From positions 1-11,155 of the forward strand of contig PWHN01000075.1 in the NCBI GenBank assembly GCA_003554945.1: 11,155 nucleotides of DNA. The letters run 5' to 3'. Positions 1,235-11,155 of this stretch are shown here, piece after piece. Each line of letters starts with the position of its first letter. Position 1 is the first letter of the stretch. Source of the DNA: a bacterium (GTDB lineage Bacteria > T1Sed10-126). Position numbers and translations under genes: made by a program. The notes below the pieces were generated by a model that worked only from the letters and a program-made list of their open reading frames with translations, ran no database searches and had not been told where the DNA came from.

Positions 1235-1467
1235 CTGTGATTGCCGACGAGGAGGAAATCAAGGGCCGTATCTCGATGCTGAGTGATTCTCAGTAACCGA
1301 AGAGTAAATGTAGGACAACGTATCAAACACGGTTGAAACCGGAGCCGTCGCCACCCGGCTGGAAGATCGATGATTACTCCCGAAAACTGTTCCCTTCTAC
1401 GAACTTTAAGCTTGTTATGTAATAATTTAGAAGAAAAGGCTTTATAGAGATCCCAACGCGAAATGTA

Positions 1468-1592
1468 GTTTTGGACCCTTGCGATACTCATTCTCAATTC
1501 GCCTCCAGCGAATCTCCGAGGTATAGAAATTAGTAATCAGCCCATCCGGGGGCTACTAATTTCTATAAATCCGTATACGAAGGGTCCAAAAC
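1468..1592 (+). ncRNA. candidate structured RNA, three-way junction, copy 1 (nfu leader)
   Basis: The closing stem is GTTTTGGACCCTT (1468-1480) with AAGGGTCCAAAAC (1580-1592), 13 bp perfect, then ATAC/GTAT after a 3x3 internal loop. Inside it come, in order, TCATTCT (1488-1494); hairpin B, ATTCGC-ctcca-GCGAAT (1497-1513); TCCGAGG (1515-1521); hairpin A, 46 nt (1522-1567), with a perfect 14-bp stem TATAGAAATTAGTA/TACTAATTTCTATA, a one-sided ATCA(G) bulge and a GCCC/GGGC tip; then AATCC (1568-1572). The same plan with different stem sequences is present at 3946-4130. The element ends 90 nt before the nfu start and faces the same way, so a 5' leader role is possible, but no clear promoter is seen in front. 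The strand is inferred from gene orientation. A mobile structured repeat is the main alternative. Confidence 0.7.
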
Positions 1593-1651
1593 CTTTTATC
1601 GAAGTTAAAAGGTAAATCCTAAGTTTTTCTACGGAGCCGAAGAAAACTAAG
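1591..1651 (+). other. two further hairpins between element copy 1 and nfu
   Basis: The first hairpin is ACCTTTTA (1591-1598) with TAAAAGGT (1606-1613), an 8-bp stem whose first two bases overlap the end of the preceding closing stem. The second runs 1619-1651: its arms pair over 13 positions with two A-A mismatches and one bulged T, and CGG-ag-CCG forms the tip. Neither is followed by a T-tract, so neither is a plausible intrinsic terminator for the plus strand. The rest of the spacer 1235-1467 holds no supported gene or site. Confidence 0.45.
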
Positions 1652-1682: not shown

Positions 1683-1910
1683 ATGCAAGAAGAAGTTGAA
1701 GAAGTCCTGGCAAAAATTGAGCCCGCGCTGGCCGCCGACGGCGGCGGGATCGAGCTGATCGACGTGGACGAGGACGAAGGTATCGTCGAGGTCCGTCTGA
1801 CCGGTGCTTGCGGCGGCTGTCCGATGTCGCAGATGACCCTTACCAACGTCGTCGAACGCACGCTGAAAAGTGAAGTTGAAGGAGTCAAGAAAGTAGAAGC
1901 GGTAGAATAG
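1683..1910 (+). CDS. nfu: Nfu-type iron-sulfur scaffold/carrier protein (NifU C-terminal domain)
   Basis: This 75-residue protein consists only of the NifU C-terminal domain. It opens with the typical 'VLAKIEPALAADGGG' helix and contains the CGGCPMS motif (Cys43 and Cys46), the cysteine pair with which a dimer holds a [4Fe-4S] cluster for transfer to apo-proteins in the cytoplasm. The length is normal for stand-alone Nfu. GGAGG (1671-1675) lies 7 nt before the ATG. The 5' region carries the three-way-junction element and extra hairpins. The next gene, a Crp/Fnr regulator, starts 1 nt after the stop, so the two are almost certainly one transcript with coupled translation. Asp and Glu are frequent, as in proteins of salt-in halophiles. 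The family assignment is firm; the client proteins are unknown, though the ferredoxin at 10432 is an example of a possible client. Confidence 0.93.
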   Translation: MQEEVEEVLAKIEPALAADGGGIELIDVDEDEGIVEVRLTGACGGCPMSQMTLTNVVERTLKSEVEGVKKVEAVE

Positions 1911-3860: not shown

Positions 3861-3921
3861 CACCCTACGAACCATAAGAACCAAGCTTTAACACTAAATT
3901 TCAATCGTTGACGTAAGCGGC

Positions 3922-4204
3922 TCTATTGAAAACCTTGTTAAAGACGGGCTACTCAAAGGTGTTGGGACTCATTCTTCCGAGCACTCAATTTAAAGCGTAA
4001 GAAGTAATAGATGTCAAAATTTGCTTTCATATGTTTTATTGAGTGCTCGGTCCGAGGTATAACTGGCAATAATCAGATCCTCCAGGATTTATTGTCAGCT
4101 ATAAATCCGTAAAACACCTTTGAGTAGCCCAATTAAAGTTTATGACTATTCAAAAGGTAGCACTAATCAATTGCTCTCTAAGATAGCAAAAAGGATTTCA
4201 ATAG
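3922..4204 (+). other. long outer stem enclosing element copy 2 (chemoreceptor leader)
   Basis: CTATTGAAAACCTTGTT (3922-3938) pairs with AAAAAGGATTTCAATAG (4188-4204), 15 of 17 positions, bracketing the whole three-way-junction element. The 3' arm belongs to a second conserved motif, CAATTGCTCT (4168-4177), 10 nt, then AAAAAGGATTTCAA (4188-4201), then TTGAGCTAT (4226-4234), found again in the ferredoxin leader. GTAGC (4157-4161) can also pair with GCTAC (4246-4250), which directly adjoins the ribosome site GGGGAGG (4240-4246), so folding could influence translation of the chemoreceptor. No convincing -35/-10 pair was found in 3861-4253. Confidence 0.5.
3946..4130 (+). ncRNA. candidate structured RNA, three-way junction, copy 2 (chemoreceptor leader)
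   Basis: The closing stem GGGCTACTCAAAGGTGTT (3946-3963) with AACACCTTTGAGTAGCCC (4113-4130) is 18 bp perfect. Inside are TCATTCT (3969-3975), hairpin B with a 13-bp stem CCGAGCACTCAAT/ATTGAGTGCTCGG (3977-3989/4038-4050), TCCGAGG (4051-4057), hairpin A of 46 nt (4058-4103) and AATCC (4104-4108). Hairpin A again has a 14-nt arm (one mismatch, one G-U), then ATCAG on one side only and an ATCC-tcca-GGAT tip. Compared with copy 1 the single strands are identical while the stems differ, several positions by paired changes. TTAAAG occurs 2 nt outside both ends (3938-3943 and 4133-4138), which could be chance or a target duplication. Confidence 0.72.
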
Positions 4205-4253
4205 TACCAAGCAAGCAACTAAATTTTGAGCTATTATCCGGGGAGGCTACAAA

Positions 4254-10136: not shown

Positions 10137-10214
10137 AGTTTTATACGCTTAACTTTTTGCCGGGGGGTTCATGTTACCTCTGCACTCTTGTATTATCCAT
10201 GAGATACATCAATT

Positions 10215-10244
10215 TTTACACACATTTACTTGCATGACTATAAT
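10215..10244 (+). promoter_or_regulatory. promoter of the ferredoxin gene
   Basis: TTTACA (10215-10220) and a perfect TATAAT (10239-10244) lie 18 nt apart, predicting transcription from about 10251. The ferredoxin start codon is at 10432, so the message has a leader of about 180 nt whose first hairpin begins within 10 nt of the start. The spacer between this promoter and the divergent iron-operon promoter (10137-10214) shows no further supported site. Confidence 0.65.
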
Positions 10245-10259
10245 TATTTTTTCATATCC

Positions 10260-10382
10260 CCGTTGAAATCCTGGCAGTCAACGGACCACTCAATTGCTCT
10301 AAAGAAAACAAAAAAGGATTTCAACAGAGGCCTCTTCAATTAACTACTGTAAAAATTGAGCTATATCAAGGAAGTGGTGTCC
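10260..10382 (+). other. structured ferredoxin leader with competing stems
   Basis: Two pairings share the same bases: the local hairpin CCGTTGA/TCAACGG (10260-10266/10278-10284) and the long-range stem GTTGAAATCCT/AGGATTTCAAC (10262-10272/10315-10325, 11 bp). ACCACT (10285-10290) can pair with AGTGGT (10373-10378), and CTCAATT (10289-10295) with AATTGAG (10354-10360). The core CAATTGCTCT, exactly 10 nt, AAAAAGGATTTCAA, then TTGAGCTAT matches the chemoreceptor leader at 4168-4234 with identical inner spacing. There is room for a switch between folds, but no clear terminator; the ribosome site is about 35 nt further down. Confidence 0.55.
10347..10373 (+). repeat. 27-nt direct repeat, copy upstream of ferredoxin
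   Basis: CTGTAAAAATTGAGC, 4 variable bases, then TCAAGGAA. The same 27 nt, 23 or more identical, recur at 10659-10685, so the ferredoxin gene is bracketed by two direct copies. Confidence 0.7.
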
Positions 10383-10431
10383 AAAGTTCTCTATACTTTC
10401 ACTGGAAAGTTTAAAAGAGGAGGTGATCAAA

Positions 10432-10650
10432 GTGGCTAAGGTTGAAATTGACGAAGATCTCTGTATTGCCTGCGGCATCTGCTACGGTAGCCATCCTGAT
10501 ATTTTTGCCGACGACGGAGAAGGAAACGCAATCCTTGTCGACAAGTTTCAAACCGATGGTCAGCAGACGGGTGAAGTCCCGACAGAGCTGGGAGATTCCG
10601 CCCGGGAGGCTGCCGAACTGTGCCCGACTGAAGCAATAACGATTAATTGA
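10432..10650 (+). CDS. single-cluster [4Fe-4S] ferredoxin
   Basis: This small cytoplasmic electron carrier has 72 residues. Cys11, Cys14 and Cys17 in CIACGIC plus Cys64 followed by Pro (ELCPTEAI) are the four ligands of one [4Fe-4S] cluster; there is no second cluster motif, as in Thermotoga- or Desulfovibrio-type monocluster ferredoxins. The insertion between the cysteine motifs (residues 18-63) is acidic, in keeping with a halophile. The start is taken as GTG 10432 (MAKVEID) rather than GTG 10423: the ribosome site, GGAGGTGATC (10419-10428), covers 10423 itself and leaves a normal 8-nt spacing from AGGAGG to 10432. That site is a near-complete complement of the 16S rRNA 3' end, so strong translation is expected. 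The gene has its own promoter, a structured leader and flanking 27-nt repeats. Redox partners are unknown. Confidence 0.92.
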   Translation: MAKVEIDEDLCIACGICYGSHPDIFADDGEGNAILVDKFQTDGQQTGEVPTELGDSAREAAELCPTEAITIN

Positions 10651-10658
10651 ACTATCTC

Positions 10659-10685
10659 CTGTAAAAATTGAGCCCTGTCAAGGAA
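10659..10685 (+). repeat. 27-nt direct repeat, copy downstream of ferredoxin
   Basis: This is the second copy of the sequence at 10347-10373, beginning 8 nt after the ferredoxin stop codon. Both copies are preceded at a short distance by AACTA. A small CCGG-actt-CCGG hairpin (10690-10701) follows, with an AT-rich stretch after it that is too weak to call a terminator. Confidence 0.65.
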
Positions 10686-10914: not shown

Positions 10915-11155
10915 AAACAAAAAAGCTAACCCGCTTAATGCATGAAAATTTAATTTTCTTGCATTAAGCGCCTCTACGAGGCAGCCGTCAAACTTAAAAC
11001 GCCAAATAAATCAAGTTCTAATAAAATGTCCAGGTTTACAGAGTGTTTTTATGGCAATAATTCTATTAGTTTGACAGCTGGGTTAGCCCAGCCCTCAGCG
11101 CCCTGAGGGCTGTCCTCTGGACGAATTATGCTCAAAGATCGCAACTCTTTGTGCA
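10915..11155 (-). ncRNA. candidate large structured RNA, four-way junction (runs past window end)
   Basis: Helices abut without unpaired bases: P1 GCTAACCC/GGGTTAGC (10925-10932/11080-11087); P2, a hairpin of GCTTAATGCA/TGCATTAAGC (10933-10942/10960-10969) topped by GAAAAT/ATTTTC; P3 GCCTC-tac-GAGGC (10970-10982); P4 AGC-c-GTCAAACT with AGTTTGAC-a-GCT (10983-10994/11068-11079). Next to it is a perfect 10-bp hairpin CAGCCCTCAG/CTGAGGGCTG (11089-11112). Further arms, ATAATTC/GAATTAT (11057-11063/11123-11129) and CAAAGA/TCTTTG, continue to the end. On the minus strand P1 is followed directly by TTTTTTGTTT (10924-10915), which looks like an intrinsic 3' end; that is why the minus strand is preferred. 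The family is not recognised. Alternatives are a leader on the plus strand or the inverted-repeat end of a mobile element. Confidence 0.5.

Follow-up and report, generated by a model that had tools for sequence, protein, structure and literature searches.

A three-way-junction fold borne by MITEs with unrelated ends in several bacterial phyla, and its possible link to CsrA

A stretch of 11,155 nucleotides from the bacterium T1Sed10-126, here called the window, carries directly upstream of a putative nfu-like ORF an element in which short fixed strands join helices of variable sequence. A second copy lies further along the window. The question is whether this element belongs to nfu, to a known class of RNA, or to neither. 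In copy 1, a 13-bp closing stem, GTTTTGGACCCTT/AAGGGTCCAAAAC (1468-1480 and 1580-1592), encloses two hairpins, as a first, sequence-only reading had described. The linkers TCATTCT (1488-1494 in copy 1, 3969-3975 in copy 2), TCCGAGG (1515-1521 and 4051-4057) and AATCC (1568-1572 and 4104-4108) are identical in the two copies, and the hairpin that this reading called A is indeed 46 nt in each (1522-1567 and 4058-4103). The closing stem of copy 2 is a perfect 18 bp (3946-3963/4113-4130), and its hairpin B is far longer than that of copy 1. Folding z-scores are -7.4 for copy 1 and -10.7 for copy 2, with 0 of 200 shuffles folding equally well. The features of the window are as follows.

1430-1437, unstranded: left target-site duplication GAAGAAAA of insertion 1; the same 8 bases stand at 1639-1646
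1438-1638, minus strand: MITE 1, 201 bp, separating nfu from the ORF upstream; its terminal inverted repeats, GGCTTTATAGAGATCC/GGCTCCGTAGAAAAAC, are imperfect
1468-1592, minus strand: putative three-way-junction RNA, copy 1, on the complement, the strand with the wobble pairs
1468-1487 and 1573-1592, minus strand: P1 arms of copy 1
1488-1495, minus strand: conserved junction strand of copy 1, GAGAATGA on the complement and TCATTCTC on the plus strand, near-invariant in the alignments
1496-1514, minus strand: hairpin P2 of copy 1, apical loop TGGAG on the complement
1515-1521, minus strand: conserved junction strand of copy 1, CCTCGGA on the complement and TCCGAGG on the plus strand, kept in the alignments
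1522-1567, minus strand: hairpin P3 of copy 1 (the earlier hairpin A), with a 4-nt bulge and an apical loop containing GGA on the complement
1568-1573, minus strand: conserved junction strand of copy 1, CGGATT on the complement and AATCCG on the plus strand, kept in the alignments
1639-1646, unstranded: right target-site duplication GAAGAAAA of insertion 1
1683-1910, plus strand: putative nfu-like ORF (an assignment of the sequence-only reading), downstream of insertion 1 and antisense to the folded strand
3919-4208, minus strand: MITE 2, 290 bp, with terminal repeats GGCTCTATTGAAAACC/GGTACTATTGAAATCC
3946-4130, minus strand: putative three-way-junction RNA, copy 2, with a long P2
10258-10331, unstranded: short MITE of the type-2 terminal-repeat family lacking the three-way junction (direct repeat D2; terminal repeat at 10316-10331)

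The three-way junction lies inside a MITE that has transposed and duplicated its target. The duplication around MITE 1 is a perfect 8 bp, and a full-length relative elsewhere in the genome is 92% identical to it; the 8-mers flanking MITE 2, ACGTAAGC/AAGCAAGC, agree at 6/8 positions. For most other copies in the source genome the flanking 8-mers agree at 6-7/8, and one (L158) has TTACAAAA on either side, again a perfect 8-bp duplication. Full elements found there by DNA searches measure about 200 to 290 bp, too short to encode a protein, and the genome has a GGCTCTATTGAAATCC terminal-repeat family. No obvious transposase ORF or autonomous partner was seen by eye in nine stretches around solo terminal repeats. 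Mini relatives of 66-77 bp (including L267 1553-1618, L550 and L551) have the same terminal repeats without the fold, so that the fold is ‘cargo’, separate from the transposition ends. The far end of the window holds other repeats. Related 25-39 nt repeats of the TGTAAAAATTGAGCTATATCAAGGAA type, one of them inverted, lie around a ferredoxin-like ORF (10423-10650) at 10196-10220, 10335-10373 and 10647-10685, and are possibly the remains of another small mobile element. A near-perfect palindrome, CGCTTAATGCATGAAAATT/AATTTTCTTGCATTAAGCG, within AGCTAACCC...GGGTTAGC at 10924-11088 may be a further MITE.

The sequence-only reading had placed the element in front of nfu, and a cis-regulatory leader, either a riboswitch or a protein-binding leader, would account for the position of copy 1 directly upstream of that gene. 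Against this stand the perfect target duplication around copy 1, a folded strand that is antisense to nfu, and the presence of dozens of copies elsewhere in that genome. Nor is there a preferred orientation in other genomes: by simple ORF calls, both neighbours lie on the strand of the element in 18 cases and both on the opposite strand in 13, with 9 divergent and 9 convergent, so that orientation relative to neighbouring genes is near random. A cis-regulatory role is rejected on these grounds of orientation and target duplication, and the probability left to an nfu leader is negligible.

The further copies that the sequence-only reading proposed to look for turned out to be many, in the source genome and in other phyla. 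The exact linker pattern occurs 15 times in the source genome, in two types that each lie between recurring flanks, and the reversed pattern not once; in 59 relatives of the source genome it gave only chance matches without structure. A first covariance model, built from six copies, has 64 matches in the source genome at E<1, of which about 57 have E-values under 1e-7; the matches fall into several subfamilies with unrelated stems. Scanning GTDB with a pattern of fixed junction strands and spacings only, pairing not being required, gave at least 117 stretches, where about 17 are expected from a uniform-base estimate. By their record titles the matches listed come from Nitrospirota, Desulfobacterota, Latescibacterota, Spirochaetota, Gemmatimonadota, Omnitrophota and others, and nearly all of the junction-only matches listed fit the model and share the fold, although no pairing had been asked for. 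Three loci (L292, L297 and L331) were chance occurrences of the pattern that do not form the fold. A broader covariance model finds at least 1,033 copies in the 35 genomes behind the listed loci, with at least about 107 in the richest. Under strict filters 8 of 386 genomes, mostly from different families, were positive; the spread across phyla is patchy, in the manner of mobile DNA. In viral contigs the tight pattern had no match, and the 120 stretches given there by a looser pattern were at chance level and were discarded. At three loci (L188, L190 and L195) one three-way junction is apparently nested in P2 of a larger one, the outer ends being ACTAAAGTTTTGC.../...GCAAAACTTTAGT.

The same fold is carried by MITEs with unrelated terminal repeats. 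Those of a Nitrospiraceae genome (G128) measure 184-186 bp, end in CCNGAATTGTCATTAG and have mostly perfect 5-bp duplications, whilst those of a deltaproteobacterial genome (G110) end in CCTAAGCTGAGCGAT, also with 5-bp duplications; further carriers end in CCCAAATCCAGC or GTAACTATTCAG. Perfect 5-bp duplications flank 7 of 12 and 3 of 5 scored copies in two genomes, the register being free by 1-2 bases. Duplications are thus 5 bp in G128 and G110 and 8 bp in the genome of the window, and elements of at least two transposase types probably carry the one fold.

The stems differ completely between copies, and pairing is retained. In 23 diverse copies 85.9% of cells are paired, compared with 52.3% after shuffling, and both sides have changed in 226 cells, compared with 71.5 (sd 7.1). 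The covariation score is 0.817 (0.184 when shuffled) and drops to 0.12-0.21 when the partners are slid by 1-3 columns. Counts of stems are limited to copies with a paired P2; at junction-only loci the outer P2 pairs are Watson-Crick in 438 of 492 cases (89%), compared with 40% when the arms are dealt among copies. The three-way fold is under selection across phyla, which bears out the earlier proposal of conserved single strands between covarying stems; of the two observations named in advance as fatal to it, an Rfam match and copies in which stems unpair while the junctions vary, neither was made. That a MITE-borne, selected fold is present we regard as very probable.

Which of the two strands folds can be read from the mismatches, since RNA tolerates G.U but not A.C. 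When 205 copies are grouped by distinct stems into 92 clusters, the mismatches on the strand chosen by the sequence-only reading are A.C in 73 cases and G.T in 25 (p=1.3e-6), a ratio of 2.9 with a bootstrap interval of 1.9-4.9. An excess of A.C on the plus strand means that the complement has G.U wobbles and is therefore the folded molecule; selection acts on this one single strand. After the wobble count the top strand was dropped as the RNA, the earlier choice of strand is reversed, and copy 1 becomes antisense to nfu. An internal loop in P1, TC/TC in 32 of 88 clusters, is a tandem G.A on the complement. One opposing feature is GG/AA at the base of P3, which would make a tandem G.A on the strand first chosen. 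The plan of the complement is 5'-P1-GCGGAUU-P3-CCUCGGA-P2-GAGAAUGAGC-P1'-3'.

Strict pairing and near-perfect long P1 arms are also what arm-to-arm correction by template switching during replication predicts, and short MITEs without the fold do occur in the same genome; the palindromes might then be functionless hairpins kept perfect by replication. Such a process leaves unexplained why unpaired junction strands are identical across phyla and unrelated MITEs, why wobbles prefer one strand, and why both loops carry GGA, and we consider it most improbable.

The loops suggest what the folded strand may engage. Of the 92 clusters, 69 have GGA in the apical loop of P2 on the complement, compared with 15% for shuffled P2, and 61 have it in that of P3. 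The CsrA/RsmE motif CA(N)GGANG describes P2 in 49 clusters, of which 28 read CANGGANG and 21 CAGGANG; the P2 loop in the window, CTGGAGG, deviates from the ideal CANGGANG. The best site for RsmE is an ANGGAX hexaloop directly on a stem, an AGGAX pentaloop being weaker (PMC4005645), and the CA(N)GGANG loops correspond to one or other of these. The source genome encodes CsrA. CsrA was searched for in 80 genomes; among the carriers with scored copies, csrA was detected in 22 and not in 13. In each of the 22 CsrA-encoding carriers half or more of the P2 loops contain GGA, whereas 6 of the 13 without detected csrA have no GGA loops (Fisher p=0.001 compared with the CsrA-encoding set). In an rpoB tree four of these six form one clade within GGA-bearing Nitrospirota and G118 is distant; the short fragment rows of G110, G124 and G104 group artificially, so that G124 cannot be placed. 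GGA loops are retained in seven genomes without detected csrA. Close relatives of three of these encode CsrA, and rpoB is missing as well from two of the seven, so that gaps in the assembled genomes are the likely cause. The association was noticed post hoc, and much of it comes from one Nitrospirota clade and one or two other lineages. It is supportive of a link with CsrA, through few independent events.

Several genomes add detail. G118 (L294, L320 and L335), a small genome labelled Candidatus Spechtbacteria and possibly mis-binned, has several copies of the fold without GGA loops. At L290 (4837-4952 and 2891-3001) and L275 (7311-7438), where csrA was not detected, GGATT of the complement junction strand has become GGCTT or GGGTT and GGA is lost. 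Two independent carriers, G159 (L560, L567, L571 and L575) and G331 (L563), have no GGA loops, whilst a third, G319 (L559 and L570), has CATGGATG loops; from the loops, csrA is predicted to be absent in G159 and G331 and present in G319.

We somewhat favour the complete explanation in which a structured RNA encoded on the complement strand is non-coding MITE cargo that binds CsrA; for the binding itself the chances seem to us about even. Transposition moves the MITE copies, and read-through or transcription would yield an RNA that shows two apical GGA loops, A(N)GGAX, on stems. The two loops could hold both binding sites of one CsrA dimer. Numerous copies might then sequester CsrA, or an insertion might place the flanking transcript under CsrA control. 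Action as RNA, CsrA binding and a decoy function of the copies are all inferred. Genomes that lack CsrA retain the junction strands and hairpins; since the fold persists there whilst the loops lose GGA, CsrA binding cannot be its sole role, and it would have another that does not depend on CsrA, possibly in the stability of the RNA or in mobility. No conserved promoter or terminator was found; a consensus scan saw no terminator-like site on the complement of either window element and one promoter-like match (9/12) within P3 of copy 2.

The lack of a visible internal promoter, the mobility of the copies with their target duplications, the near-random orientation and the retention of junction strands in the absence of CsrA would all suit a fold of single-stranded DNA, as would strict Watson-Crick stems with few wobbles in total. 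The MITE strand would fold during replication or transposition, a nuclease, transposase or repair factor would read the junction strands, and the element would never be a working RNA. However, the wobble asymmetry would then require a strand-specific factor. Terminal repeats flanked by duplications of 5 and 8 bp point to DDE transposases, and these act on duplex ends. A fold common to MITEs of different transposases is a poor fit to a transposase-specific signal, and the GGA loops track CsrA. We think a DNA fold unlikely, if worth serious attention.

Short conserved junction strands, free stems and tandem G.A are, on the other hand, typical of small ribozymes, and the fold is retained where the loops lack GGA. 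The junction might form the centre of a self-cleaving ribozyme not yet described, or of another protein-binding RNA, with the GGA loops serving as tertiary contacts or being optional. Nothing in this analysis supports catalysis, Rfam ribozymes do not match, and the sequence of the loops follows both the CsrA motif and the presence of CsrA; we hold this to be distinctly improbable.

The usual view of MITEs is that they are empty remnants of transposons. That MITEs of different transposases and phyla have one selected RNA fold in common implies a shared benefit on the side of the host, for which the GGA loops name a testable candidate. Three things go beyond the sequence-only reading: the cross-phylum spread, the GGA loops and the fact that unrelated MITEs carry the fold. 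More tentatively, unrelated MITE families across phyla may have taken up one class of RNA because it engages CsrA, supplying dispersed, multi-copy CsrA decoys where no CsrB-type RNA is known, with loops that decay when CsrA is lost. CsrA is widespread. CsrB-type RNAs were stated in 2014 to be known solely from Gammaproteobacteria (PMC4333381), and if the proposal is true, a repeat-borne CsrA RNA elsewhere would fill that gap.

How, then, does the element compare with known systems? The view that the pattern is foreign to known riboswitches and ribozymes holds: Rfam gave no credible match at E<=10 for the window and 20 loci, or at E<=5 for six loci, and the sub-threshold matches were eukaryotic hairpin families on single stems only. 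No description of the fold was found in the open-access literature. With CsrB/CsrC and RsmX/Y/Z it shares stem-borne apical GGA loops, A(N)GGAX, and several GGA per RNA, but those RNAs come from sRNA genes of Gammaproteobacteria that have a promoter and a terminator, whereas here the RNA would be a repeated three-way junction in other phyla for which a promoter was not recognised. TwoAYGGAY (RF01731) and the reverse complement of Bacillaceae-1 (RF01690) are proposed CsrA-binding RNAs outside Gammaproteobacteria (PMC4333381). Both have a hairpin pair with GGA loops; tandem G.A is reported in a stem of the first, and the CsrA motif of the second likewise lies on the reverse complement. The element described here differs in its three-way junction without Rfam match, its conserved junction strands, its hosts and its carriage by MITEs. 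CGTC-tagged REPs and dRS3 (PMC3733652) are also dispersed palindromes, with ends similar by eye to TCATTC and AATCC. Those REPs are single hairpins of 20-40 bp (PMC3733652) defined by one 8-9 bp hairpin, a CGTC tag and a CCA tail, in contrast to a MITE-internal junction of three helices with a core of about 100 nt. Finally, bcr1, NEMIS, ERIC/YPAL, RUP and Nezha are short, non-coding, mobile and RNA-foldable, with terminal inverted repeats and target duplications, as here. Each of them is one terminal-repeat family with a narrow host range (PMC3733652 and general knowledge), whereas the three-way junction spans several unrelated terminal repeats and several phyla.
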